A stretch of 64,000 nucleotides of DNA from positions 1 to 64,000 of the forward strand of contig NZ_JAAKGT010000007.1 in the NCBI RefSeq assembly GCF_011043625.1, given 5' to 3'. Each line of letters begins with the position of its first letter. The first letter of the stretch is position 1. This document shows positions 48,652-61,544 of the stretch, piece after piece. The notes under the pieces are model-generated. The model was not told the origin of the DNA. It ran no database searches and worked only from the letters and a program-made list of their open reading frames with translations. The position numbers and the translations under genes are program-made. This DNA is from Caulobacter sp. 602-2 (GTDB lineage: Bacteria; Pseudomonadota; Alphaproteobacteria; Caulobacterales; Caulobacteraceae).

Positions 48652-49859
48652 CCCTGGGCGTGGGCGGATCGACCATGGCCGCCGAACTGGCCGACCTTTC
48701 GCTACGCGCCGGCCGGCCGCCGGCCATCGCCGCCGCCGAGTACGAGGCGCGGCTGGAGAAGGCGAGGGCGCTGACCCGCGCGCTGGGCGCCGACGCCCTG
48801 CTGATCGGGGCCGGCGCCTCGCTGCGCTATTTCACCGGCGTGCCGTGGGGCGCGACCGAGCGGCTGGTCGCCCTGCTGCTGCCGGTGACCGGCGCGCCGG
48901 TGATGATCTGCCCCGGCTTCGAGCTGGGCTCGCTGCAGGCCGACCTGAAGATCGAGGTCGAGATCCGCCTGTGGCAGGAGCACGAGAGCCCCGCCGCCCT
49001 GGTCGGCCGGGCGCTGGCGCAGCTGGGCGCCGACGTGCTGGCGCTGGATCCGGCTGCGCCGTTCTCGCTGTTCGCCGCCCTGCGGCAGGCCGCACCGTCG
49101 CTGTCGGTCAAGGACGCCGGGCCGGTGGTCGACGGCTGCCGGGGCGTGAAGTCGCCGGCCGAACTGGCGTTGATGCGCTACGCCAAGGCCATCACCCTGG
49201 ACGTCCATCGCCGCGCCGGCGCGGTGCTGGCGCCGGGCGTGCGGGCCAGCGAGGTGAAACGCTTCATCGACGAGGCGCATCGCGCGGCCAGCGGCGGCGG
49301 CTCGACCTTCTGCGCCGTGCAGTTCGGCGAGGCTACGGCCTATCCGCACGGCCTGCCTGGCGACCAGGAGTTGGCCGAGGACGATCTCGTGCTGATCGAC
49401 ACCGGCTGCCAGGTCGAGGGCTACCAGGCCGACATCACCCGCACCTACGTATTCGGTGCGCCCGGCGACGAGCATCGCCGGATCTGGGAGATCGAACACG
49501 AGGCGCAGGCCGCCGCCTTCGCCGCCGTCCGTCCCGGCCTGCCGTGCGAGGCTGTCGACGCGGTCGCCCGCCGGGTGCTCGAACGTCATGGCCTGGGCCC
49601 CGACTACGCCCTGCCGGGCCTGCCGCACCGCACCGGCCACGGCATCGGCCTGTCGATCCACGAAGGACCTTACCTGGTGCGCGGCGATGCGACGCCCCTG
49701 GCGCCGGGCATGTGCTTTTCCAACGAGCCGATGATCGTCATCTCCGGCCGCTTCGGCGTGCGCCTGGAGGACCATTTCCACGTCACCGAGGACGGGGCGG
49801 CCTGGTTCACCCCGCCGTCTCCGTCGATCGACGACCCGTTCGGCCTGCGGGCTCGGTGA
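48648..49859 (+). CDS. M24-family Xaa-Pro peptidase (prolidase-like)
   Basis: A 403-residue creatinase/prolidase-type metallopeptidase. The N-terminal domain (residues about 30-165) is followed by the catalytic pita-bread domain with the five metal ligands: Asp in LIDTGC, Asp in ADITRT, His in HRTGHGIGL, Glu in SNEPMI and Glu in RLEDHF. It cleaves dipeptides or peptides with proline in second place. In a hydroxyproline locus it would release (hydroxy)proline from collagen- or plant-glycoprotein-derived peptides. The ATG has GAGGAAAG before it and overlaps the oxidase stop. Confidence 0.87.
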   Translation: MTLGVGGSTMAAELADLSLRAGRPPAIAAAEYEARLEKARALTRALGADALLIGAGASLRYFTGVPWGATERLVALLLPVTGAPVMICPGFELGSLQADLKIEVEIRLWQEHESPAALVGRALAQLGADVLALDPAAPFSLFAALRQAAPSLSVKDAGPVVDGCRGVKSPAELALMRYAKAITLDVHRRAGAVLAPGVRASEVKRFIDEAHRAASGGGSTFCAVQFGEATAYPHGLPGDQELAEDDLVLIDTGCQVEGYQADITRTYVFGAPGDEHRRIWEIEHEAQAAAFAAVRPGLPCEAVDAVARRVLERHGLGPDYALPGLPHRTGHGIGLSIHEGPYLVRGDATPLAPGMCFSNEPMIVISGRFGVRLEDHFHVTEDGAAWFTPPSPSIDDPFGLRAR

Positions 49860-49910
49860 TCCTCCCCCTCTGGAAGAGCCGGCCCGACGGGCGGGGAGGG
49901 GAAGTCCAGC

Positions 49911-50552
49911 CTATTTCAGCCCGAGGGTGACCGGGTTGGTCGTGCGCACCAGGGCCCGGGGCGGGGCGTCCTGGGAGGCTACGGTCTGTTCGGCGGCCTT
50001 CTCGGCGGTCACGGCCTGGCCCTGGGAGTCGACGAAGGCCGCGGTGATGCCGCGGGCCGACATCGCGGCGACGGCTTGCGCGCCGGTCAGGCCGCGCACC
50101 TCGGGCATGGGAGCCGCATCGTCCAGGGCGGTGGGCGGCGGCACGGGCACGATCTTGAAGGTCAGCTTGGCCGCGCCGCTGGCCTGGAAGGCGTAGCGCT
50201 GCTGGAAGGCCGCATCGACGGGGGTGACATAGGTCCGCGCCTTGCCGATCGCGGCGACCTGGCCCGACGTGCCGGCGCTGCCGTCGGCGCCGCCCGTGCC
50301 GCCGATGTGCATCGAGACCTGCACTTCGCAGGTGGTCTCTGGCAGCACGTAGAAGGTCGGCTGGTAGCCGATGGCGCGCAGGGCCTCGACGCCCTCGTCG
50401 CCGTCGCTCTCGTACATGGCCAGGGTGGCGGCCAGAGAGGCGTGGTCGAGCGCCGCCTGGGCCTCGGCCACCCCGCGACCGACGGCGGCGATCACCTCGC
50501 CCAGCGGCGTGGCCAGGCTTTCGCTGAGCAGGTCCGAAGCGTCCTGGGCCAT
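49911..50552 (-). CDS. PTFY-signature protein with C-terminal PASTA-like domain (operon gene 10)
   Basis: A 213-residue protein and last gene of the ten-gene operon. It has the cluster's N-terminal helix (PLGEVIAAVGRGVAEAQAALDHASL), the signature IGYQPTFYVL at residues 61-70 and the VPVPPP element of its relatives. The C-terminus (MPEVRGLTGAQAVAAMSARGI) resembles a PASTA domain, as in the preceding gene. No signal peptide is seen. Function unknown. Confidence 0.7.
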   Translation of the reverse strand: MAQDASDLLSESLATPLGEVIAAVGRGVAEAQAALDHASLAATLAMYESDGDEGVEALRAIGYQPTFYVLPETTCEVQVSMHIGGTGGADGSAGTSGQVAAIGKARTYVTPVDAAFQQRYAFQASGAAKLTFKIVPVPPPTALDDAAPMPEVRGLTGAQAVAAMSARGITAAFVDSQGQAVTAEKAAEQTVASQDAPPRALVRTTNPVTLGLK

Positions 50553-50555
50553 GGG

Positions 50556-51989
50556 TCAGGCTCCCTGTTCGTCGGCGAAGATGACCATCACCCGCGCGCC
50601 GCGGGCGATGATGGATCCGGCCCCGGGCGACTGGACCATGGCCTGGCCGGGGGCGACGGCCGGGTTGAGGCCGCGCGGGCCGGTGCTGGCCTCCAGCACC
50701 AGGCCCACCGAGGTCAGCACGCGGCGCACCGCGCTTTCGGTCAGCTGCAGCACGTCGGGCACGCGGGGGCCGTCGTCCTCGCTGGCGACCTTCTCGGGAA
50801 TGAACTGGAACTTCAGGTCGCTCAGCGAGTCCTGCGGCAGGGTCTTGAGGGTGTCGGCGTCGAGGAATTCCATGCTGCCGCTGTCGCGCAGTATGCCCTT
50901 GGCGCTGACCTGGATCGCACCCAGCGAAAAGCCCGTCGGCTTCAGGGTCTTCTGGGCGCTGTCGAGCTGGGTGGCCATGGTGGTGGCCAGATCGGTGACC
51001 GCCACGGTCCGCAGCGTGGACGCGACGGCGGGGTTGATCACGCCGGCCGTGGTCCCGGCCGTCGTCCCGCCGGTGGTTCCCGTCGTGGGATCCGGCGTGC
51101 GGGTGGCCTTGATGTCCTCGATCTCGAGGTCCTTGGCGACCAGGGTGGCGCGCAGGCCGGAGATTTCCTTCTCCTGCTCGGCGACCACCCGGCTCCGCTC
51201 GACCAGCTGGGCGTCGCGGCCGGCCAGTTCCTGGTCGCGTTGCGCCAGGCGGGCGTTGCTCTTGGCGGCGTCGTCGGCGGCCTGGGCCCTGACGGCGGCG
51301 ATCTGGGCGTCACGCTCGCCCAGGGCCTTGGACTGGCTCGCGATCTGGACGTCGCGGGCGGCCAGGTCCTGGTCGCTCTTGGCGCGGGCGGCGGTGATGT
51401 CGGCCTTTTCGGCGCGCAGGGTGGTGATCTGGGCGTCGCGCTCGGTGATCTGTTTCGACTGGGTCGAGATCTGGGCGTCCCGTGCGGCCAGATCCTGGTC
51501 GTTCTTGGCCAGCCGCGCGGTGAAGGTCTTGGTGGTGTCGTCGACCGCCTGGGCGCGGATCGCGGCGGCGTCGACCGTCGGCGTCGCGGCGATGGCCGCG
51601 TCGGTGGCCACCACCCCGCCGATCGGCGCGGCCGTCCGCAGGGTGCGGGCCGACAGGGTGCGGGCGATCACCGTCTCCTGCACGGCCAGGCGGCGCACCT
51701 GGCCGAAATCGATGGCCAGTGCGCCGGTGCGCGCGTTGCGGGTGAACTCGGGGCTGGCCGAGATCACGCCGGCGCCTTCGACCAGCCGGAAGGCCGGGGC
51801 GAAGGGCAGGGTGTCGTCGGCGATGGTTCCCGCGCCCTTGGCCGTGCCGGCCGCGTCGGTCTTGGCGCTGGAGGCGCTGGCCCAGGCGCCGGTCTTCAGG
51901 TCGAACAGCTGGACGTCCAGCGACGCGCCGGCCGCGACGGCGCCGTCGGCGTCGGTCAGCCGGGCGGTCCAGGAGAAGGCGGTGCTCAT
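50556..51989 (-). CDS. Coiled-coil protein with C-terminal PASTA domain (operon gene 9)
   Basis: A 477-residue protein in three parts: a beta-rich head (about 1-100; SWTARLTDADGAV), a coiled coil (about 150-290) of repeating ARDAQI/DQDLAARD units, and after a Thr/Gly linker a domain ending in a PASTA motif (VPDVLQLTESAVRRVLTSVGL, then VQSPGAG and VMVIFAD). PASTA domains bind peptidoglycan, but there is no signal peptide or membrane segment. Overlaps gene 8 by 4 bp. Function unknown. Confidence 0.72.
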   Translation of the reverse strand: MSTAFSWTARLTDADGAVAAGASLDVQLFDLKTGAWASASSAKTDAAGTAKGAGTIADDTLPFAPAFRLVEGAGVISASPEFTRNARTGALAIDFGQVRRLAVQETVIARTLSARTLRTAAPIGGVVATDAAIAATPTVDAAAIRAQAVDDTTKTFTARLAKNDQDLAARDAQISTQSKQITERDAQITTLRAEKADITAARAKSDQDLAARDVQIASQSKALGERDAQIAAVRAQAADDAAKSNARLAQRDQELAGRDAQLVERSRVVAEQEKEISGLRATLVAKDLEIEDIKATRTPDPTTGTTGGTTAGTTAGVINPAVASTLRTVAVTDLATTMATQLDSAQKTLKPTGFSLGAIQVSAKGILRDSGSMEFLDADTLKTLPQDSLSDLKFQFIPEKVASEDDGPRVPDVLQLTESAVRRVLTSVGLVLEASTGPRGLNPAVAPGQAMVQSPGAGSIIARGARVMVIFADEQGA

Positions 51990-52639
51990 CCGACTTCCTC
52001 CATGCCGATCACGCCCCGGCCGCTATAGGCGCCGATGGAGGCGACCACCACCACGACCGCGCGGGCGGGCTCCTTGGCGATCGACAGGGCGGCGACCGCG
52101 CGGCCCTCGGCGTCGGTGCGCAGCAGGGCCTGCTGCAGCCGCGTGCCGGGCTGGCGCACGAAATTGGCCACGCCCCGCGCCGCCGACAGGGTGGCGCTGG
52201 CGGCGTCGTCGATGTTCAGCTCGACCGGCTGGCCGGCCAGCACCTCGCCGGCGCTGTTGGTGACCACGACCGATAGGTTGGCCAGCCCGCCGATGTTGCC
52301 GCCGCCCGAGACGGCGATGCGCGGGGTGGGCAGGCCCTCGCCTGGCGGGGTGGCCACGAGGCGCCCGCTGATCGTGCTGCTGACCTGCTGGTTGGTGCTG
52401 TTCTGGTCCTTGGCGGTGAACAGCAGGGCGATGGGCCGCCCGCCGCTGTCGGCCTTGGTCTGCATGTCGACCTTGATCGAGAAGTCGAGGAACGGCAGCT
52501 GGTAGCCGCCGATGGGCGCGCCGCTGGCGTCGACCTTCGGGCCGCTGTTGAGGGCCAGCTGCGCCTCGCGCACTCCTTCGGCGAGGGCCACAAGCAACTC
52601 CTCGATCGAATTGCCGACGAAGCGGCTTTCGGCCGGCAT
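51986..52639 (-). CDS. Operon gene 8, helix then Ig-like beta protein
   Basis: A 217-residue protein. The start (NSIEELLVALAEGVREAQLALNSG) is a variant of the amphipathic N-terminal helix shared by the operon's PTFY-signature proteins, but the PTFY motif itself is missing. The rest is beta-rich with Big/Ig-like features (LANLSVVVTNSAGEVLAGQPVELNID, LLRTDAEGRAVAALSI). No signal peptide. It overlaps gene 7 by one base and gene 9 by 4 bp. Confidence 0.65.
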   Translation of the reverse strand: MPAESRFVGNSIEELLVALAEGVREAQLALNSGPKVDASGAPIGGYQLPFLDFSIKVDMQTKADSGGRPIALLFTAKDQNSTNQQVSSTISGRLVATPPGEGLPTPRIAVSGGGNIGGLANLSVVVTNSAGEVLAGQPVELNIDDAASATLSAARGVANFVRQPGTRLQQALLRTDAEGRAVAALSIAKEPARAVVVVVASIGAYSGRGVIGMEEVG

Positions 52640-53718
52640 CAGGCGTCTCCCTCGGAATTGTCGCGGGACTCTTCGGAGCGCTTGGCCTTCAGGCGCTCCA
52701 GGGCGCGGTCGCGGCGAGCGTCGTCGCGGGCCTCGTCGGCCTCCTTCAGCTCGCGCACGTCGCTGGCCATCTCGCGCAGGCGGTCGGCCTTCTCGGCGTA
52801 GTCGGCCAGTTCGCCGACCGCGACGCTGAGCTTGCGGGCCGTCTCGCGCACATAGGGATCGGCGCGGCCCAGGCCCGGGATGCGCTCGCGGGCCCGCTCC
52901 ACCCAGTCGCTGGGAATGGCGTCGCGGGCGCTGTCCAGCGCGCGTTCGGCGGCGGCGTAGGCCTTGCGGCCGCGGCTGACCATGTCGCGGGCCTTGGCCA
53001 GGCGTCGGTCGAGGGGATCGCTGGCCGACGCCGCGCGCGGACGCTGGTCGACGCCCTGCAGGGCGCGGCCGGCGTCGCGCAGGCCCCGACCGGCCTCGGC
53101 CAGCGAGGCCAGCCGCCGCGACGGCTCGGTGGAGGAGGCGGGTTCCCGGCGGGCGGCGATCCGTTCCCACGGCGCCTCGCGCGGCGTGGTCGCCGGACGT
53201 TCCCAGGCGGCCTCACGGGCGGGCGCGGGCGGACGCTCGAAGATCTCGGGCGTGGTGAAGCGGCGCAGGTCGGGCGTCAGCTCGCCGGGGGTCGGTCGCG
53301 CCTGCTCGCCCGGGGTGGCGCGAAGGCCCTCGCCCGGCGTGGTCCGCAGGGCGTCGGCGGCCGTGCCGCGCAGGGCGGGCGGCAGGGCCGGCGGATGCGG
53401 GTCGGGTCGCGGCGCGACGGCGGCGCGGGCGGCGTCGCGCCCGGCGCTCCAGCGTTCGAGCTCGGCCCGGCGCTGGTCCAGCGGCGTGACGGCGTAGCGG
53501 GGATCGCCGAGCCCGCCCTGGCCGGTCAGGCCGGCCATCCTGCTCTCCAACGCCTGGCGTTCGGCCATCAGCCGCGCCAGGTTCGGAGACACGGCGGCCG
53601 GGTCGGCGCCCGGCGGCAGGCCGCGAGGCGGGGAAGGCGTCGCCCGCGCGGCCGGCGCGGCCGCCGGCGCCGGCGACTTGGCGCGACGCAGGGCGTCCTT
53701 CCAGGGCGGATCGCTCAT
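52639..53718 (-). CDS. Operon gene 7, charged Pro/Arg-rich protein
   Basis: A 359-residue low-complexity protein. The N-terminal half is rich in Pro, Ala and Arg and contains short repeats (TPGEGLRATPGEQARPTPGEL near residues 127-147; AWERPATTPREAPWERIAARRE). The C-terminal third is helical and strongly charged, probably a coiled coil (RLREMASDVRELKEADEARDDARRDRALERLKAKR). No known domain, no signal peptide. It starts inside the stop of gene 6. Confidence 0.6.
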   Translation of the reverse strand: MSDPPWKDALRRAKSPAPAAAPAARATPSPPRGLPPGADPAAVSPNLARLMAERQALESRMAGLTGQGGLGDPRYAVTPLDQRRAELERWSAGRDAARAAVAPRPDPHPPALPPALRGTAADALRTTPGEGLRATPGEQARPTPGELTPDLRRFTTPEIFERPPAPAREAAWERPATTPREAPWERIAARREPASSTEPSRRLASLAEAGRGLRDAGRALQGVDQRPRAASASDPLDRRLAKARDMVSRGRKAYAAAERALDSARDAIPSDWVERARERIPGLGRADPYVRETARKLSVAVGELADYAEKADRLREMASDVRELKEADEARDDARRDRALERLKAKRSEESRDNSEGDA

Positions 53719-54272
53719 CCGTCGTCTTCTTCCTCGGCGGCCCGTCGCTTCTCGATCAGCGCGCGCACCCGCTCCTCGAACAGCGCCGGCGGCGGGATGG
53801 GCACCAGCTTGGTGCGCATCAGGCTCGAACCCTCGGCGCTGTACTGGTACTTGGCCGCGTAGCTGGCGCTGACGCTGCTGGCGCTGACCGCGCCGCCGCC
53901 GCCGAACGGCGTCCAGAAGCCGCCGGCCTTGACCGTCGTGCTGCTGCTGCTGCGCTTGATCTCGGTCTCGGACTTGAACGAGATCGACATCTTCAGCTCG
54001 ATCACGGTGTCGACGAACTGGTAGAAGGTCGGCGTGAAGCCGAGCTCCAGCAGGCTGTACTCTTGGCCGTCGCCGAACTTGACCATGTAGGTCTTCGACT
54101 TGGCCCCTTCGCCTTCCTTCTCCTCGTCGGCGTCCTCGTCGTAGCCGGCCATCAGCCGGGCTATCCGCAGCGACACCATGTCGAGCTGCAGCTGGGCGGT
54201 GGCGATGCCGACGCCCAGGCGCTGGACCATCTCCGGAAAGGGGACGGCGAGCAGTTCGGTGCCCACGCTCAT
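53715..54272 (-). CDS. PTFY-signature protein (operon gene 6)
   Basis: A 185-residue protein with an N-terminal helix (PEMVQRLGVGIATAQLQLD), an acidic insert (DEDADEEKEGEG), the signature LGFTPTFYQF at residues 77-86, a Ser/Gly-rich beta region, YQYSAEGSSLMRTKLVPIPPP and a charged helical tail. It is the closest relative of gene 5, with nearly identical cores. No signal peptide. Function unknown. Confidence 0.72.
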   Translation of the reverse strand: MSVGTELLAVPFPEMVQRLGVGIATAQLQLDMVSLRIARLMAGYDEDADEEKEGEGAKSKTYMVKFGDGQEYSLLELGFTPTFYQFVDTVIELKMSISFKSETEIKRSSSSTTVKAGGFWTPFGGGGAVSASSVSASYAAKYQYSAEGSSLMRTKLVPIPPPALFEERVRALIEKRRAAEEEDDG

Positions 54273-54294
54273 GGCGCGTTCTCCCTCCGGGACG

Positions 54295-55065
54295 TTACGG
54301 GTTCACGGGGGCGGGGTTCTGGGTTCCCAGCTTCTTGTCGAGCAAGCGGCGGCGACGCTCGACCTCCTCGTCCAGCTGACGGCGGATCCGCTCTTCCAGG
54401 ATGGCCGGGGGCGGGATCGGCACCAGCTTGGTGCGCAGCAGGCTCGAACCCTCGGCCGAGTAGCTGTATTTCGACGAGTAGCTGGCGTCGACCTGGCTGG
54501 TCGAGACCTGGGTCGTGTTGCTCGTGCCAGCCTTGCCGCGGAACAGGCTCCAGCTGAAGCTCGAGCCCTTGGTGGTCACCTGGCTGGTGGCCTTGGAGGT
54601 GCGGGTGGACTCGCTGCTGTAGGTGATCTTGATGGCGATCTTCACCTCGATGATCGTGTCGACGAACTGGTAGAAGGTGGGCGAGAAGCCCAGCTCCAGC
54701 ATCGACAGGCGCGTCGGCACCCGGATCAGGGTGGTGTCGGGGTTCTCGCCGTTGTCCTCGGCGGCGTCCTTCTGGTCCTTGACGACCTTTTCCAGCGCCT
54801 TGGTGTCGCCGCCGGAAATGGCGTTGTCGGCGGCGATGTAGGCCAGGGCGTCGCTGGCGGTCATCAGGTCGTAGCCGAAGAAGATGCGGCTGTCGTCGAA
54901 GGTGGTCTTGCCCTCGTCGTCGGTCACGGCCTGGAGGCCGCCCATCATCTCGGCCACCTCGATGCTGTTGGCGTCCAGCTTGATCTGGCCCTCGGCGATG
55001 GCGAAGGCCATCTGGCGGATCATGTCCCCCATGGGGACGTTCAGAAGCTCTCTCCCGATCGACAT
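54295..55065 (-). CDS. PTFY-signature protein (operon gene 5)
   Basis: A 256-residue paralogue of gene 6 with a longer insert between the N-terminal helix (MIRQMAFAIAEGQIKLDANSIE) and the signature LGFSPTFYQF at residues 125-134. It shares the YSYSAEGSSLLRTKLVPIPPPAILEER end and adds an Arg-rich helix (QLDEEVERRRRLLDKK). It starts 13 bp after gene 4. No signal peptide. Confidence 0.72.
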   Translation of the reverse strand: MSIGRELLNVPMGDMIRQMAFAIAEGQIKLDANSIEVAEMMGGLQAVTDDEGKTTFDDSRIFFGYDLMTASDALAYIAADNAISGGDTKALEKVVKDQKDAAEDNGENPDTTLIRVPTRLSMLELGFSPTFYQFVDTIIEVKIAIKITYSSESTRTSKATSQVTTKGSSFSWSLFRGKAGTSNTTQVSTSQVDASYSSKYSYSAEGSSLLRTKLVPIPPPAILEERIRRQLDEEVERRRRLLDKKLGTQNPAPVNP

Positions 55066-55077
55066 GTCTGGTCCTTC

Positions 55078-55560
55078 CTAGGGATTGGGCGCGGGCGCAG
55101 GGGTGGGCTCGCTGATCTTGCGAAGCAGGTTTTCGAGGTTTTCGGGCGGCGGCAGGCTGACCAGCCGGGCCGCGATCGAACTCATGCCCTCGGCGCTGAC
55201 CGAGAACTTGCGCGCGTAGCTGACGTTGACCGAGGCGGCGACCATGACGAAGCCGGCCTGCACGCCGACCGTGGCCCCGGCCGAGACGCCGAATTCGGTG
55301 CTCTCGGTCATGCTGAACGACAGCTTGGCCTCCACCGTCGCCTCGGTGAAGCTGTAGAAGGTGGGCGTGAAGCCCAGCGAAATCAGGTTGTGCGTCTCGC
55401 CGCCCAGTTCGATCTCGGCCTCGGCCATGGCCTTGGCCGTCTCGATGCTGTTGCGGTCGAGCGCGGACTGCGCCTGGGCGATGGCGATGCCCAGGCGTTC
55501 GATGATCTGCGGCAGCGGCGCGGACAGCAGCTGCCGGGTGACGGACGCGGTCTCGCTCAT
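55078..55560 (-). CDS. PTFY-signature protein (operon gene 4)
   Basis: A compact 160-residue member that shows the family most clearly: helix IIERLGIAIAQAQSALDRNSIE, the signature LGFTPTFYSF at 62-71, beta strands (ATVEAKLSFSMTES, VMVAASVNVSYARKF), then VSAEGMSSIAARLVSLPPPENLENLL and a Pro-rich tail. The layout of helix, strand, variable part, strand and PPP end recalls DUF2589-type proteins, though I could not show homology. It overlaps gene 3 by 4 bp. Confidence 0.72.
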   Translation of the reverse strand: MSETASVTRQLLSAPLPQIIERLGIAIAQAQSALDRNSIETAKAMAEAEIELGGETHNLISLGFTPTFYSFTEATVEAKLSFSMTESTEFGVSAGATVGVQAGFVMVAASVNVSYARKFSVSAEGMSSIAARLVSLPPPENLENLLRKISEPTPAPAPNP

Positions 55561-57353
55561 GGCGTGGGCGTCGGGGTCGGCGTGGAGCCGTTGGCCGGCG
55601 CCAGGTAGGTCTTGATCTCGTCGAGGAACTCGACGGGCGCGGGCACCGCGACGATGCGGGCCGAGATGCTGCTGTTGCCGTTGATCGACTGCTCGAACTG
55701 CCGGCTGGTGCGGTAGTCGACCGACAGGCCCACGGCGACCGAGACCTTGGGCTTGTCGGCGCTGGCGGTGGGGCCGGCGGCGATCTTGTCGAGGGCCTTG
55801 GTGACGCTGGCGCCGTCGGCGGCCGACAGGGCGATGTCGTTGGCCGACAGGGTGACCAGGTTGATCACGACCGCGTCCTTGGCGTCGGAGAAGCTGACCA
55901 CGCCGCCCTTGCGCACGGCGCGCACGCCGTGGGTGGCGCTGCCGGCGTTGACGTCGCGCGCCAGGTTGAAGGCGTAGGCCTGGGGCGAGTTGGCCTCCAG
56001 CGTGGTCGAGCCGTCATTGGCCGCGGTTCCGCTGATCGCTACCGAGGTTTCCGAGGCCCCGACCTTCACCGCCGTGCCGTCCACCGGAACGGCGGTGAAG
56101 TGGCGCACGATGATGAAGCCGTTGCCGCCGCCCGAACTGGTCTTGTCCGGCGTCGGCGTGGCCTGCAGCTGGGTTCCGGCGGACTCGACCACGATCAGCA
56201 GGTCGTTGGAGTCGGCCAGCAGCACCTCGGCGCGGCGGAACTGCTGGTTGGCGACGTTGTCGACGGCGCCCTGGGCCTTCCAGCTGGCTTCGCCGCGGCT
56301 TTCGACCTTGCGGATCTGGCCCGGCGCGACGCCGTTGTCGCGCAGGAACTCGGCCACCTTGTTGGCGCGGTCCAGGCCCAGCTTCTGATTGTAGGGGTCG
56401 GTGTCCACCCGATCGGTGAAGCCGACGACGTCGACCGTCGCGCCGTTGGCCTTCAGCGCTCGCGCCACCAGGGTCAGTTCCTCGATGGCGGCCTGCTTGA
56501 GGTCGGACTTGCCGCTGTCGAACAGCGCCAGGCCCAGCGTGCCGCCGCCGACCGGCAGGTCGGAGCCGACCGGATCGCGCAGCAGCTTGGCCTTGAACCC
56601 GCCCAGCGTGTTGATCTGGCTGGCGACGGCGCGGGCGTAGAGCAGGTTGTTGGCCTTGGCGTCGACCTTGGTGCTCTTGCCCGAAGCCAGCACGAACTCT
56701 TCGCTGGTGTTGTTGGTCGGGGTCTCGACAATGCGGATGACGCCCAGGCTGGCCTCCGAGGCGGCGTAGAACGCCACGCTGGTGTCGGTCTTGATCGGGT
56801 TCTTGGCGGTGTCGGGTTCCAGCTTGAACGGCACCTTCGTGCGCTTGGCGCTGACATAGGCCCGCTCGAACTTGCCGGTGGGCGTACCCAGCTTCTTGGC
56901 CAGGTCCTCGGCGGCGGCCTCGACGTCCGCGCCGGCGGCGTCGGTCTTGGTTCCGTCGACGGTGACGCTGGCCGGCAGGCTCTTGAGCGTGACCTGGGCC
57001 TCGCGGGCGTTGGCCGGAGCCTGGGGACCGCCCTGGCCGAAGCCGAAGTCGAGCTTGCCGCCGATGCCGAAGGCGCTGGCCTCGCCGACCTTCATGGTCA
57101 GCTGCATCGAGACCGTCAGGTCGGCGTGCTGGTAGTGGTAGAACGGCGGCGACAGGCCCAGCTGCAGCAGGCTCTTGCCGCCCAGGCCGGGACGCGGCTC
57201 CACGTACTCGCCGACCTGGGCCAGGCTGTTGAGGTCGAGCGCTTTCTGGGCGTCGGCGATCGACAGGCCCATGGCCTTGATGAACTCGGCGACGCTGGCG
57301 TCGGCCAGGATCTGGCCGGGCGTCATCTTCTCGATGGGGTTCTCGTCAGCCAT
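55557..57353 (-). CDS. PTFY-signature protein with internal OmpA-like domain (operon gene 3)
   Basis: A 598-residue protein, the largest of the operon. The N-terminal part has the family helix (FIKAMGLSIADAQKALDLNSL) and the signature LGLSPPFYHY at 65-74. A beta domain leads to an OmpA/MotB-like peptidoglycan-binding domain at about residues 265-385 (ALFDSGKSDLKQAAIEELTLVARAL, GFTDRVDTDPYNQKLGLDRANKVAEFL). The C-terminus repeats the family end (SVDYRTSRQFEQSINGNSS, RIVAVPAPVEFL). No signal peptide. I chose the ATG at 57353 (MADENPIEK). Function unknown. Confidence 0.72.
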   Translation of the reverse strand: MADENPIEKMTPGQILADASVAEFIKAMGLSIADAQKALDLNSLAQVGEYVEPRPGLGGKSLLQLGLSPPFYHYQHADLTVSMQLTMKVGEASAFGIGGKLDFGFGQGGPQAPANAREAQVTLKSLPASVTVDGTKTDAAGADVEAAAEDLAKKLGTPTGKFERAYVSAKRTKVPFKLEPDTAKNPIKTDTSVAFYAASEASLGVIRIVETPTNNTSEEFVLASGKSTKVDAKANNLLYARAVASQINTLGGFKAKLLRDPVGSDLPVGGGTLGLALFDSGKSDLKQAAIEELTLVARALKANGATVDVVGFTDRVDTDPYNQKLGLDRANKVAEFLRDNGVAPGQIRKVESRGEASWKAQGAVDNVANQQFRRAEVLLADSNDLLIVVESAGTQLQATPTPDKTSSGGGNGFIIVRHFTAVPVDGTAVKVGASETSVAISGTAANDGSTTLEANSPQAYAFNLARDVNAGSATHGVRAVRKGGVVSFSDAKDAVVINLVTLSANDIALSAADGASVTKALDKIAAGPTASADKPKVSVAVGLSVDYRTSRQFEQSINGNSSISARIVAVPAPVEFLDEIKTYLAPANGSTPTPTPTP

Positions 57354-57930
57354 GCATCGGCTCCTTGATCCGCGGCTCCTTGGGTCCCACGGGGGACTCA
57401 CAGGCGCGGGCGCTGTCGACGGTGTCGGCGCGCACGGTCCAGTAGCCGTGGGCGCGCTGGGCTTCGGCCATGCGGACGGCCGGAACGCCGAGGCCGCGGG
57501 CCGTCCAGGCCAGGAGGTCGCGGGACAGGGGCAGGGCCCCGTCCAGGGCGATGGCGGCGGCCAGGCTTTCGCGGGCGCCGGTCACGTCGCCGGCCTTTAG
57601 GCGGTTGACGCCGCAGCGTTCGAGCAGGCAGGCGCGATCGCGGCGCTGGAAGTCGCTGGGCGTTCCATCGCCCAGCTCGGCGGCGGCGCTGCAGGCGGCT
57701 TCGTGGGCCAGCATGGCGGCCTGTTCGTTGGCGCCGGTGCGCTCCAGGCTTTCCAGGACGCAGTGCAGGTAGTGCCGGGCGAAGACCTGTGGGGCGCGCA
57801 CGCCGTGGGCTAGGCGCAGGGCTTCGCGATACTTGGCCAGCGCCTCGTCGTGCCGGCCCTTCAGCGCCAGCAGCTTGCCCGCCTCGGCGACGCCGGCGTG
57901 CAGGCGATGCACGTCGATGGCGGGCGTCAT
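57346..57930 (-). CDS. TPR-like helical protein (operon gene 2)
   Basis: A 194-residue protein of helical hairpins that look like tetratricopeptide repeats (AEAGKLLALKGRHDEALAKYREALRLAHG, ERCGVNRLKAGDVTGARESLAAAIALDG). TPR proteins act as scaffolds for other proteins. Several Cys residues are unusual for this cluster. It overlaps gene 1 by 4 bp and gene 3 by 8 bp. Confidence 0.68.
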   Translation of the reverse strand: MTPAIDVHRLHAGVAEAGKLLALKGRHDEALAKYREALRLAHGVRAPQVFARHYLHCVLESLERTGANEQAAMLAHEAACSAAAELGDGTPSDFQRRDRACLLERCGVNRLKAGDVTGARESLAAAIALDGALPLSRDLLAWTARGLGVPAVRMAEAQRAHGYWTVRADTVDSARACESPVGPKEPRIKEPMHG

Positions 57931-59009
57931 GCGCGGGCCTCGGAAAACAGCACCTCGGCCCCGGCCGCTTCCAGCCGATGGCGCATCAGCCGAGCGCGGG
58001 GACGCGGCATCAGCGCCGTCGAGACGGGCGCGGCGTCGGGCAGGCCTATTTCGGCGAGCGCGCGCGCCGGGGCGGAAATGATGTCCAGCGCCTGATAGGA
58101 GAAGGTCTCCAGTTCCGCGCGCACGGTCAGGCCGGCCTCGGCGTAGGCGGCCATGCGGCCCTCCAGGTCGGCGAAGGCGACGCCGGCCTCGACGGGAACC
58201 GGCAACGCCTGGCGCAGCAGCTCGAAATCCTCGGCCGGGACGCCGGCCAGCGCTTCCAGCGCGGCGGCGCCTTCGACGGGAGCGGCGACCAGCTCGACGG
58301 TGAAGCGCAGGAAGGCCTGGTCGACGATCCGCACTTGCTCGGGGGCTTTCAGCCGCCGCCACAGGCTGTCGGCTTCGCTGCGGCCAAGGTCGAAGACGGT
58401 GGCCGAACCGCCCGGCGTCAGATCCGCGCCGTTCGGCAGCCTCTGGCGCAGGATGCCGATCTGCAGGTGCGACAGGTCGCTGGCGAACAGGGCGAAGCGG
58501 GCTTCGTCCGGACGGCTGGCGGTCAGCCGCACGGCGCCGGCGGGCAGGGCGGCCTCCAGGGCGCGGACCGTGGCTTCGGTGACGGCGCCCAGGATCACGC
58601 CCGGCGGGGTCAGCAGCAGGTCGAGGGCGGCGGCGGCCTCCATGCCCAGGAACCGGCCGAGCACGACGCCCACGGCGTCGGCGGCGTCGAGATCCAGGAG
58701 TTCGCCCGCCAGGTCCATCGACGGCGCGCGGGCCGGGGCCGGGCCGGCGGGCGCGACGGCGGCTTCGACACCCAGGGTTCCGATCAGTTCGGCCAGGCGC
58801 GTCGCGTCCTGCCGGGGCAGGCCCGCCAGCAGCCGGGCCGGGGCGCGATAGAGCGCGTCGACCACCGTCTCGACGGGCAGTTCCAGGGCCTGGCTGAGCA
58901 CCGACGCAGCGCGCGGCGACGCGTTTCCGATGCTGGTGATCAGCAGGTCGGCGGCCTCAGGTTCGACGCTTGGATACGCTACGCTGGGGAACACCGACGA
59001 CTCGAGCAC
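57927..59009 (-). CDS. Operon gene 1, repeat protein with L7/L12-like segments
   Basis: A 360-residue protein, first of the operon. Three or four segments share the pattern of a helix, a short loop and an (A/V)xA-V strand, such as VVDALYRAPARLLAGLPRQDATRLAELIGTLGVEAAV and TPPGVILGAVTEATVRALEAALPAGAVRL, which recall the C-terminal domain of ribosomal protein L7/L12. No known enzyme motif. I chose GTG at 59009 because GGGAGG ends 5 nt before it; an in-frame TTG at 59024 overlaps that site. Function unknown. Confidence 0.65.
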   Translation of the reverse strand: MLESSVFPSVAYPSVEPEAADLLITSIGNASPRAASVLSQALELPVETVVDALYRAPARLLAGLPRQDATRLAELIGTLGVEAAVAPAGPAPARAPSMDLAGELLDLDAADAVGVVLGRFLGMEAAAALDLLLTPPGVILGAVTEATVRALEAALPAGAVRLTASRPDEARFALFASDLSHLQIGILRQRLPNGADLTPGGSATVFDLGRSEADSLWRRLKAPEQVRIVDQAFLRFTVELVAAPVEGAAALEALAGVPAEDFELLRQALPVPVEAGVAFADLEGRMAAYAEAGLTVRAELETFSYQALDIISAPARALAEIGLPDAAPVSTALMPRPRARLMRHRLEAAGAEVLFSEARA

Positions 59010-59092
59010 CAACACCTCCCTCAAGGCTGGTTTCGACCGGGGTAATCCACGCTCTAGTTGGCGCGGACCGGGACTCGTGTCAGAGTTGTATC

Positions 59093-59104
59093 ACTTTGTA
59101 AAGT
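59093..59104. promoter_or_regulatory. AT-rich inverted repeat before the ten-gene operon
   Basis: ACTTT-GT-AAAGT lies about 85 bp before the first gene, in the AT-rich stretch 59085-59115, the only promoter-like DNA in the 158-bp gap after the MFS gene. Likely promoter or operator of the operon. Confidence 0.4.
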
Positions 59105-59167
59105 TCTGAAATCTTGCACGTGGTGAATATGCGCCATGTGCGTTCGGTCGTGTGCGGGCGATCGGCT

Positions 59168-60403
59168 CTAGCGCCTTGTCAGCAAGGCTCCCGCGCCGGC
59201 CAGCGCGGCCAGGGCGGCGGCCATGAACACGCCGCGCAGATCGCCGCCGGTCGACGCCACGGCGATGCCGAGCAGCGGGCCCAGCGCCTGGGAGGCCGCC
59301 ACCGCCACGTTCATCAGGCCAAGGTCGCGGCCGTTGCGGGCGCCGTCGGGCAGCACCTCGGCCACGAGAGCCAGATTGCTGGTCGAATAGACCCCGTGCC
59401 CGATCCCGAAGATGATCTGGGCCATCAGCGGGCCGGGCCATTCCGGAGCAAACAGCAGCAGCGCAACGCCCGCGGCGATCAGCACGCCGCCGGTGACGAC
59501 CATCGGCCTGCGGCCCAGCCGATCCGACAGCGGGCCGCTGGCCGCGCCGGCCGCCAGCATGCCCAGGGTCGAGGCCGTCAGCAGCAGGCCGAACGCCGCC
59601 TCCGGCGTCACGCCCGGCAGGCGGCTGGCCAGGTCGCCGCGGTCCTTGAGGTAGAAGAACAGGTAGAGGGTGTGCAGCGCCACGGCCGTCTCCACCAGCA
59701 GGCGCGAGACGAACACCATCCGGAAGCGCCCGTCAGCGAAGGCGGTGAGCCGCAGGCTGGGCCAGGCGATCGGCGCGCGGGCCGGGGCGGGCGGCTCGCG
59801 CAGGGTCAGGGCGAAGGGCAGGACGAGCAGGGCGGTGGCCGCCACGACGGCGGCGTAGCGGCTGGCCGCCGAGACCAGCAGGGCGCTGACCACCAGGGCC
59901 GTGAACAGCTTGGAGGCCGGCAGGGCAAGACCCGCCCAGGCCGCCGCCGCGCCCTTCTGGTGGTCGGGCACGAGGTCGGGCAGCACGGCGGCCAGCGGCG
60001 CGTAGAGGGCGTTGACCGCCAGCTGCAGCAGCACCACGGCGCCCAGCATCTGCCAGGGGGTCTGGGCCAGGCTGACCAGAGCCAGGCTGAGGGCGGTGGC
60101 CGCCCAGCCGCCGAGGATCCAGGGACGGCGGCGGCCCAGGCGGCCGCGCGTGGCGTCGCTGAGCGCGCCGAAGGCGATGTGGGCGATCGCGGCGGTGATC
60201 GCGCCGACGATGGAGATCTGGCTGAGGGTCAGGTCGCGGGCGTGCGGGGCCACCTCGGCGGCCTTCAGCGGCGCCAGCAGGGTCAGGAACGGAATGAAGG
60301 AGATGAAGGCGCCGGCGTTGGCCAGGCCGTAGCCCGCCAGGAAAAGTCGCGATCGCCCGGTGTTGGCGTCGGTGTCGGGAAATGGGCGGCCGCCTTGATC
60401 CAT
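59168..60403 (-). CDS. MFS sugar transporter (GPH/SLC45-like)
   Basis: A 411-residue inner-membrane transporter with 12 predicted helices. It shows FGALSDATRGRLGRRRPWILGG between helices 2 and 3 and SGPLSDRLGRRPMVVTGG between helices 8 and 9, the doubled MFS motif. Its arrangement, divergent from a LacI gene that precedes a TonB receptor, suggests oligosaccharide uptake. Caulobacter crescentus has a similar MFS-LacI-receptor order in its maltose region, but the substrate here is unknown. Confidence 0.82.
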   Translation of the reverse strand: MDQGGRPFPDTDANTGRSRLFLAGYGLANAGAFISFIPFLTLLAPLKAAEVAPHARDLTLSQISIVGAITAAIAHIAFGALSDATRGRLGRRRPWILGGWAATALSLALVSLAQTPWQMLGAVVLLQLAVNALYAPLAAVLPDLVPDHQKGAAAAWAGLALPASKLFTALVVSALLVSAASRYAAVVAATALLVLPFALTLREPPAPARAPIAWPSLRLTAFADGRFRMVFVSRLLVETAVALHTLYLFFYLKDRGDLASRLPGVTPEAAFGLLLTASTLGMLAAGAASGPLSDRLGRRPMVVTGGVLIAAGVALLLFAPEWPGPLMAQIIFGIGHGVYSTSNLALVAEVLPDGARNGRDLGLMNVAVAASQALGPLLGIAVASTGGDLRGVFMAAALAALAGAGALLTRR

Positions 60404-60500
60404 CCGTGGTTTATGCGATCAGGACAGCTTGCGGTCGAGCTATTGTCAGCTCGGCCGTTCGTCCCCATCGTGTCGCCCAGCGTTCGGTTCGGAGAGTTCA

Positions 60501-61544
60501 TTGACGGCAAGACGGCCCACCATCGACGACGTGGCGCGCCTTTCGGGCGTCGCGCGGACGACGGTTTCGCGGGTGCTCAACGACGGCCCCAACGTTCGCG
60601 ACGAAGTGCGGGCCCGGGTGATGGAGGCCGTCAAGGCGCTGGACTACAAGGTCAATCCGCAGGCCCGCTCGCTGGCGGGCGGCGGCAGCCGGCTGCTGGG
60701 CCTGGTGTTCGCCTCCGACCTCGAGAGCGAGCCGAACTCGTTCTATCACTCGGCCCTGGAGCTGGGCGCGCTGCGCGGTTGCCTGGAGCTGGGCTACCAG
60801 CTGGTCACGCGCCATATCCCGCTGCAGAGCGCCGACCGCCAGCAGCAGGTCTACGACCTGATCGCGATCCAGCGCTGCGAGGGCCTGATCTTCACGCCGC
60901 CCTATTCGGACGACGCGCCGCTGATCGCCGAGGTGCTGCGGCGCGGCTGCAAGGTGGTGTCGATCTCGCCGGGCGGGGCGGGCAGGGGCCTCGCCGACGG
61001 GGTGGGCATGGACGACGAGGCCGGCGGCTACGACATCGCCCGCCGCCTGATCGAACTGGGCCATCGCCGATTCGCCTTCATGGGCGGCATCGAGGGCCAC
61101 CTTTCGGCCGATCGGCGCCTGGACGGCCTGATGCGCGCGCTCCAGGAGGCGGGTCTCGGGCAGGCCGACCTGATCCAGGTGCGCGGCGACTTCACCTTCC
61201 GTTCGGGGGTCGAGCTGACGCCGCGCCTGCTGGATGACCCGCTGCATCCGACGGCCCTGGTCTGCGCCAACGACGACATGGCCGCCGGAGCGCTGTCGGT
61301 GGTTCACGGACGCGGCGTGAAAGTGCCGCAAGACCTTTCCGTGACAGGCTTCGACGACACCCCGGTGTCGGCCATCGTCTGGCCGCCGCTGACCACCGTG
61401 CACCAGCCGCTGAAGGACATGGGCCGCCGCGCCGTGGCGCTGCTGGCCAGCCGCCTGACCGGCGGCCGATCCGAGGCCGAACCCGAGTTCGACTGCCTCG
61501 ACCACGCGGTGGTCGAGCGGGGCACCGCAGCCTCCGCGCCCTGA
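60501..61544 (+). CDS. LacI-family regulator of the sugar uptake locus
   Basis: A 347-residue LacI regulator with the N-terminal DNA-binding TIDDVARLSGVARTTVSRVLNDG and hinge, then a periplasmic-binding-like sugar domain (GLVFASDLESEPNSF, GYDIARRLIELGHRRFAFMGG, CANDDMAAGAL, VTGFDDTPVSAIVWPPLTTV). The start is TTG at 60501, a few nt after GGAGAG. The operator at 61590, just after the gene, and the receptor beyond it are the likely targets. Confidence 0.9.
   Translation: MTARRPTIDDVARLSGVARTTVSRVLNDGPNVRDEVRARVMEAVKALDYKVNPQARSLAGGGSRLLGLVFASDLESEPNSFYHSALELGALRGCLELGYQLVTRHIPLQSADRQQQVYDLIAIQRCEGLIFTPPYSDDAPLIAEVLRRGCKVVSISPGGAGRGLADGVGMDDEAGGYDIARRLIELGHRRFAFMGGIEGHLSADRRLDGLMRALQEAGLGQADLIQVRGDFTFRSGVELTPRLLDDPLHPTALVCANDDMAAGALSVVHGRGVKVPQDLSVTGFDDTPVSAIVWPPLTTVHQPLKDMGRRAVALLASRLTGGRSEAEPEFDCLDHAVVERGTAASAP

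Follow-up and report, generated by a model that had tools for sequence, protein, structure and literature searches.

What do ten tightly packed genes build when several of their products are related to each other and all of them recur together in distant phyla? The question is raised by a cassette at positions 49911-59009, on the minus strand of the 64,000-nucleotide stretch of contig NZ_JAAKGT010000007.1 from Caulobacter sp. 602-2 that was analysed here (the window). The ten consecutive genes, g1 to g10, overlap or nearly touch, and they are one self-contained system. An OmpA-type domain, its insertion at a predicted hairpin tip and the wall hydrolases that adjoin the cassette in other genomes point to a cassette aimed at the peptidoglycan layer. 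The features are as follows.

g1: 57927-59009 (alternative start TTG at 59024), minus strand, tandem domains similar to the L7/L12 C-terminal domain; no Pfam match
g2: 57346-57930, minus strand, TPR-like protein (TPR_2 1.2e-5, under the Pfam cut-off)
g3: 55557-57353, minus strand, family protein with an insertion of ~418 residues at the predicted hairpin tip
OmpA/Pal-type domain within g3 (residues 277-360): 56274-56525, minus strand, PF00691 1.5e-15
g4: 55078-55560, minus strand, best-conserved family protein; helix and long beta-hairpin in a low-confidence model
g5: 54295-55065, minus strand, family protein by sequence and g4-profile matches
g6: 53715-54272, minus strand, family protein by sequence and g4-profile matches
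g7: 52639-53718, minus strand, charged Pro/Arg-rich protein; no Pfam match above cut-off
g8: 51986-52639, minus strand, family-like N-terminal part and Ig-like (Big_1) part
g9: 50556-51989, minus strand, N-terminal domain, coiled coil and C-terminal PASTA
PASTA domain of g9 (residues 409-471): 50577-50765, minus strand, PF03793 24.5 bits, cut-off 23.2
g10: 49911-50552, minus strand, family protein with a PASTA-like domain at the C terminus
PASTA-like domain of g10 (residues 149-210): 49923-50108, minus strand, 21.3 bits, just below the PASTA cut-off
Spacer between the upstream MFS gene and g1, a possible promoter place: 59025-59167, minus strand

From g1 to g10 the junctions comprise overlaps of 4, 8, 4, 4, 1 and 4 bp and gaps of 12, 22 and 3 bp. 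These coordinates agree with the first-pass annotation, made from this sequence alone, which had described a coupled operon of ten minus-strand genes (overlaps of 1-8 bp or gaps below 25 bp) for structural subunits, with no recognisable enzyme, transporter or regulator of its own. The scaffold-like parts that it listed were likewise recovered, i.e. the TPR-like g2 (under the cut-off), PASTA in g9 and the L7/L12-like domains of g1. No sigma-70-type site was found in 49700-59400.

The distribution of the cassette was investigated by comparing one degenerate peptide pattern with 84,980 species genomes. This gave 149 matching relatives, and the best 80 were fetched and examined. All ten genes occur in order in 53 of the 80 loci. 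Among the 58 loci with enough flank on both sides, 48 hold all ten genes, 47 of them in the same order, which bears out the expectation that the genes travel together in related genomes; the one order difference was traced to a short g9-like gene. Full cassettes are present in Pseudomonadota, Bacteroidota and Myxococcota, and diverged versions in SAR324 and Gemmatimonadota. The grouping of the ten genes is beyond chance, because they recur in order in other phyla. Moreover, the median intergenic gaps across the loci are -4 to 31 bp, and flanking genes are rarely common to the loci (the most widespread flank cluster is found in 8 of 80). The exceptions are six loci from Kordia/Tenacibaculum, whose g6 slot is occupied by a g4-like gene, and three deep loci (SAR324, Gemmatimonadota and a deltaproteobacterial bin) in which g3 and g7 are unrecognisable, two of them sharing another gene in the g3 slot. 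In Mangrovicoccus ximenensis (L043) g3-g6 alone were recognised on a long contig and the other genes were not found there; this is a reduced or decaying copy.

A tree of g3 and g4 (FastTree, 73 rows, long branches flagged) keeps the phyla mostly together and mixes the classes of Pseudomonadota, so that the history of the cassette may be read as old inheritance with some transfer. One apparent case of transfer is the locus L097 (CP034120, named Glaciecola amylolytica), whose cassette and flanks match the Fluviicola loci L094, L098 and L101 both in gene order and by their place in the tree; mislabelling or contamination of the record is the more probable explanation. Three of these loci (L094, L097 and L098) have a conserved protein of ~330 residues (cluster c61) 3' of g10, and its L094 copy has no Pfam match. 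Four myxobacterial loci (L071, L075, L077 and L078) carry an extra short gene after g10; in L071, L077 and L078 this gene is similar to the C terminus of g9 (E about 1e-14 to 1e-15).

Within the genus the distribution is patchy, as the cassette was found in 7 of the 61 genomes searched. Five other genomes of the genus were inspected in detail: the gene order is kept, and in one of them the cassette is split over two contigs, with g1, g7 and g8 out of view. A narrow three-row profile gave no match beyond the own genome in 398 drawn genomes of the phylum. The upstream MFS gene (59168-61544) joins the cassette in G005, G010, G020 (with LacI) and G460, and G007 has the cassette without it. Among 24 genomes searched, counterparts of this gene with more than 90% identity occur only in four other cassette-bearing genomes, and an empty insertion site in a sister genome was not obtained. 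The M24 gene on the other side of the cassette is distant or on another contig in G005, G007, G010, G020 and G460. The borders of the cassette are therefore not simple.

Five of the ten proteins (g3, g4, g5, g6 and g10) form one family with a common signature, i.e. a helix, an LGF-PTFY segment and a PPP end. The signature had been noted beforehand in these five, and a g4 profile search of the whole genome at E <= 0.001 returns exactly them. Within the genome g6 matches g5 (52% identity, E 2.3e-31), g4 (41%, 4.9e-16) and g10 (27%, 7e-6). The protein g8 is probably a divergent sixth member, judging from a weak, colinear hhalign match to the g4 profile (Prob 16, P 1.5e-3); it also has a weak Ig-like Big_1 match (7.6e-4, under the Pfam cut-off). 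At most g9 could be counted as a seventh member by its helix alone, the only part that aligns in the profile comparison (Prob 1.1). The N-terminal helix had been called amphipathic; by permutation test this stands for g4 (p 0.02) and does not reach significance in g3 (0.22) or g10 (0.11).

The predicted structure of g4 consists of the N-terminal helix and two strands of ~30 residues, modelled at low confidence (pLDDT 65, pTM 0.45). In permutation tests on strand segments that were picked by hand, strand 1 is amphipathic in g3 and g4 (p 0.0002 each) and in g10 (p 0.009), and strand 2 in g3 (p 0.004) and g10 (p 0.006). In 70 g4 sequences the middle third has 4% charged residues and a Kyte-Doolittle hydropathy of +1.09, as compared to 25% and 22%, and -0.12 and -0.27, in the flanking thirds. 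A sequence-profile comparison of g4 with solved structures found no relation (best E 0.63, clathrin), and the Pfam hits seen when g4 sequences were scanned are scattered over families, none with more than 3 of 69 members and none better than E 0.005; they were taken as chance.

The wall-related domains reside in g3, g9 and g10. On g3 the g4 profile aligns in two pieces, 57033-57314 (model 9-102) and 55608-55778 (model 94-148), with ~418 residues between them, and the OmpA part therefore appears to be inserted at the predicted hairpin tip. PF00691 scores 57.8 bits in g3 against a cut-off of 27.2, 47 of the 48 g3 sequences that were scanned have the domain, and among solved structures the g3 profile comes closest to Pal (2hqs, 1.6e-20). 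The motif G-x-x-D ... N-x-x-L-x-x-x-R is conserved across phyla, G311, N322, L325 and R329 being invariant and D314 nearly so; these positions correspond to what we take to be the diaminopimelate-binding pattern. The domain is a putative peptidoglycan binder. PASTA was found in all 43 g9 sequences scanned and, at E<=0.01, in 38 of 48 g10 sequences, the copy in the window missing the Pfam cut-off. Hydropathy thresholds reveal neither a signal peptide nor a transmembrane helix in any of the ten window proteins; among the orthologs, five g1 sequences and one g8 sequence exceed the transmembrane threshold (1.8 over 19 residues).

The AlphaFold2 model of g1 has a mean pLDDT of 93.6, and two of its domains match L7/L12- and ClpS-like structures: residues 24-91 resemble 1ctf (Z 10.3, root mean square deviation 1.8 over 68) and residues 240-304 resemble 7o9k_FF (Z 8.5, 1.8 over 65). 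A relative of g7 is present in 69 of the 80 loci by profile.

The neighbourhoods in other genomes also link the cassette to the wall. In 15 of the 80 loci a wall hydrolase or wall-binding protein adjoins the cassette, and its type varies (amidase, CHAP, M15, SH3). Amidase_2 is the neighbour in seven loci from four separate genome types (L052, L062, L067, L069, L070, L081 and L102). CHAP with PG_binding_1 is found in L037, and the end of a gene of this kind in L036; L068 has the same pair, with CHAP below the Pfam cut-off, and the neighbour in L095 is CHAP-like as judged by eye. M15_4 with PG_binding_1 is seen in L046 and, by similarity, in its sister L100. The L035 neighbour has SH3 only, in a protein with a hydrophobic stretch, and in L091 two PG_binding_1 proteins adjoin the cassette. 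Most adjoining hydrolases have no signal peptide (judged by eye), and, for the loci included in the tree, their types differ between its branches, as if they had been recruited several times.

The L091 pair (SAR324; L091:15715-19556, directly after g10) are long, related proteins, the first of them with PG_binding_1 under the cut-off, and a large part of them is unassigned; they are possibly a new family of wall-active enzymes. In L067, L069 and L070, from Ectothiorhodospiraceae-type genomes, the gene right after g10 consists of Amidase_2 and then, in frame, a CobU-like part (by eye). This fusion is odd; CobU occurs in 3 of the 118 neighbour genes scanned.

A comparison of Pfam counts with those of more distant genes supports the view that wall hydrolases adjoin the cassettes above chance. 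Pfam detected Amidase_2 in 7, PG_binding_1 in 5, SH3_3 in 4 and CHAP in 3 of 118 neighbour genes. None of these four figures in the list of 25 families for the 118 far-flank genes, in which the smallest count is 2, so that each can have at most two matches there. Moreover, the 52 Amidase_2 matches in 36 genomes correspond to ~0.06 adjacent cases expected by chance at 80 loci (our own estimate, assuming ~4000 genes per genome), and seven were seen. That genome-wide count was based on 37 loci of our choosing, positives included, of which 36 were searched; the adjacent amidases of L052, L067, L070 and L081 match in it by coordinates, and that of L102 did not match by place.

Flank genes were called with our own codon-based caller, and five near-duplicate loci (L023-L026 and L100) were dropped from the neighbour test. 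The nearest-neighbour list has 126 entries from 68 loci. The 118 genes scanned, from 67 loci, are 116 of these entries, the L102 gene in corrected form instead of a fragment, and the second neighbour of L077; ten entries (sisters, very long, masked) were left out by hand. The far set is 118 of 137 genes, from 47 loci. Pfam scans of the neighbour alignments gave the counts, later scans assigned the members, and L095 and the SH3 parts were assigned by eye. A phmmer search of the flanks used six queries picked for their adjacency, so their all ranking first among 655 flank genes is a biased result; L035 matched in this search only at 0.001, via its SH3 part.

The first-pass annotation had proposed a generic structural assembly. 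The structural subunits stand, and the picture was incomplete: the OmpA domain of g3 (PF00691, 1.5e-15), the insertion at the hairpin tip and the weak Big_1 match of g8 had been overlooked, and the hydrolase neighbours that point to peptidoglycan are invisible in a single window.

The same annotation had guessed at a kinship with DUF2589 proteins, and remote homology is indeed supported by profile comparison. Searched with PF11655 itself (gathering cut-off 23 bits), the whole genome yields no match at E<=1. A ten-row DUF2589 alignment from six genomes matches the g4 profile colinearly and over its full length (Prob 80.4, P 1.3e-5, 145 columns), as compared to Prob 0.3 and P 0.21 in a control comparison of g1 with the g4 profile. 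One DUF2589 protein is reached by the hidden Markov models of g4 (0.003) and g5 (0.0009), and the g10 and g8 profiles match DUF2589 weakly (Prob 17 and 3.6). The similarity supports DUF2589 as a remote homologue of the cassette family, and it is the only relative found. Both have an N-terminal helix with A-x-AQ, a strand-variable-strand layout and paralogs side by side. In the six fetched loci the DUF2589 groups do not reach the size of the ten-gene cassette, and OmpA or PASTA was not noticed in their DUF2589 proteins by eye, without a domain scan, whereas g3, g9 and g10 carry these domains. In two of the six loci a wall-related enzyme follows, GH19 in one and Amidase_3 (after a 64-codon open reading frame) in the other; a third neighbour taken as M15-like had no Pfam match and was not counted. 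PMC3949148, the only paper found to name DUF2589, reports that the Archaeoglobus group AF0414-AF0417 is up-regulated with lactate.

The reading that we tentatively favour, and consider possible rather than likely, is a beta-hairpin ring or pore, built in the cytosol, that makes contact with the wall and acts together with an endolysin-like enzyme. Conservation, domains, neighbours and, by hydropathy, the missing export signals are observed; that a ring forms, that it crosses the membrane and how the hydrolase takes part are inferred. The family proteins would be made and assembled in the cytosol, with the N-terminal helix serving for association, and their long amphipathic hairpins would contribute to a ring or barrel. 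The tips of the hairpins, almost free of charge in g4 and bearing OmpA in g3, would pass or push through the inner membrane and attach to peptidoglycan, where the PASTA domains of g9 and g10 may provide further contacts; g1, g2 and g7 would be scaffold or assembly factors. The opening could admit a signal-less endolysin-like hydrolase to the wall, whose gene is a neighbour of the cassette in some lineages and may lie elsewhere in the rest. In action, though not by descent, such an assembly would be comparable to holin-endolysin release or to a type 10-like device for release or wall opening.

Several observations weigh against this reading. The hairpin model of g4 has low confidence, with a tip pLDDT below 50, and the folds that it matches are generic, with weak scores (Foldseek E 0.086 and Z 3.6 at best), none of them reliable enough to assign a known fold. 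Strand 2 of g4 fails the amphipathicity test (p 0.24), and the tip of g5 is charge-rich (25%), unlike the nearly uncharged tip of g4. It would be unusual for a folded OmpA domain to be carried across a membrane by a hairpin. Among the orthologs, two g3 sequences and one g9 sequence exceed the N-terminal hydropathy threshold. As to the neighbours, the one in L068 lies on the opposite strand, those in L046 and L100 are ~410 bp from the cassette, the wall-related YkuD_2 appears in the far set (3 of 118), and the remaining 65 of 80 loci, that of the window included, have no such neighbour in the flank scans. Finally, wall work cannot be the core of the wider DUF2589 family, because a group is present in Archaeoglobus, which has no peptidoglycan.

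The main rival is a tailocin-like or other particle that is assembled in the cytosol, freed by lysis of a few cells, and hits the walls of other cells via OmpA, PASTA and a carried hydrolase. In its favour are the absence of signal peptides by hydropathy, the OmpA and PASTA domains, the varying type of adjacent hydrolase and the patchy occurrence in 7 of 61 genus genomes. Phage ancestry is not apparent from the searches, however. PHROG matches are to unknown-function families only and fall in the OmpA region of g3 and, weakly, in g9. The capsid- or head-fibre-like Pfam matches are either under the cut-off (SU10_MCP 0.099 in g5) or isolated (Phage_head_fibr 0.006 in 1 of 48 g3 sequences). Relatives were found neither for g6 in viral_contigs (six patterns) nor for g4 in phages, by one-sequence searches that miss distant relatives, and no lysis or immunity gene was recognised in the cassette. 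We regard the particle as unlikely.

A cytosolic, organelle-like scaffold or filament of paralogous subunits, with OmpA and PASTA as generic binding modules, would account for the TPR-like, coiled-coil and L7/L12-like parts and for DUF2589 groups in an archaeon; it sits badly with an OmpA motif whose G311, N322, L325 and R329 are invariant and D314 nearly so across phyla, and with wall hydrolases adjoining above chance, and we think it quite improbable. An abortive-infection system that opens the envelope upon phage infection would suit the patchy distribution and the wall-breaking partners in some lineages, yet the cassette has no obvious sensor and for its proteins PADLOC gave weak, partial matches only (in g3, ZorB at 0.0014 within the OmpA part; in g9, JetC at 0.016 within the coiled coil; in g5, PDC-M48B at 0.036), so we give it little credence. 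An adhesin- or stalk-like structure anchored to the cell's own wall and exported by a signal-less route, for which the OmpA, PASTA and Ig-like parts speak, has a similarly slight chance, given that hydropathy shows no export signal, that none of the cassette genes is a recognised export partner and that the endolysin-like neighbours are left unexplained.

If the favoured reading, a hairpin ring or pore working with a hydrolase, is taken in its widest form, the cassette would encode an envelope machine of a new class, built in the cytosol, without phage ancestry and distinct from the known secretion systems: a ring or pore of paralogous hairpins with Pal-type tips that passes the inner membrane from the cytosolic side, holds on to the wall and gives passage to an exchangeable hydrolase, with the DUF2589 groups, archaea included, as its minimal form. 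This wider claim is doubtful. Nevertheless, a ten-gene machine in fixed order across phyla and without a described function in the literature searched, i.e. open-licence PubMed Central text, where the searches did not turn up the cassette, is rare, and the link to wall hydrolases makes an anonymous operon and the DUF2589 family a testable hypothesis. A pore would give bacteria a new means of opening their envelope from within; a particle would be a new class of wall-targeting particle.

As had been anticipated, Pfam, NCBIfam, PHROGs and PADLOC placed the ten proteins in no characterised system, returning OmpA, PASTA, TPR-like, Ig-like and coiled-coil parts and weak matches. A DNA search of E. 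coli found no relative, and one plasmid relative was found, in Sphaerotilus (38% identity). A further likeness is to the Pal/OmpA C-terminal domain, with which g3 aligns as described for 2hqs; in g3 it lies in a signal-less protein at a predicted hairpin tip, whereas Pal/OmpA proteins are outer-membrane lipoproteins or porins. Ring-forming beta-hairpin proteins (the FliF S-ring, binary-toxin translocase pores, lysenin) would share a long hairpin with the low-confidence model of g4 and resemble it weakly, at the Z and Foldseek values given above. Tailocins and contractile injection systems are multi-subunit cytosolic assemblies with wall-related parts, and the cassette would resemble them in both respects; tube, sheath, baseplate and AAA proteins had no PHROG, Pfam or NCBIfam match among the ten proteins. 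Rhapidosomes, known from Archangium and others, were considered as well, and no claim is made for them. In its proposed action the cassette resembles type 10 release, which needs a holin (PMC10847048). It differs from holin-endolysin and type 10 systems in that no holin-like membrane helix is seen by hydropathy and that a ten-protein assembly stands against a small lysis cassette. An endolysin-type gene is adjacent in a minority of loci and not beside the cassette of the window. What the cassette has in common with these systems is that its products are apparently cytosolic and that, in some lineages, a signal-less wall hydrolase is encoded nearby.

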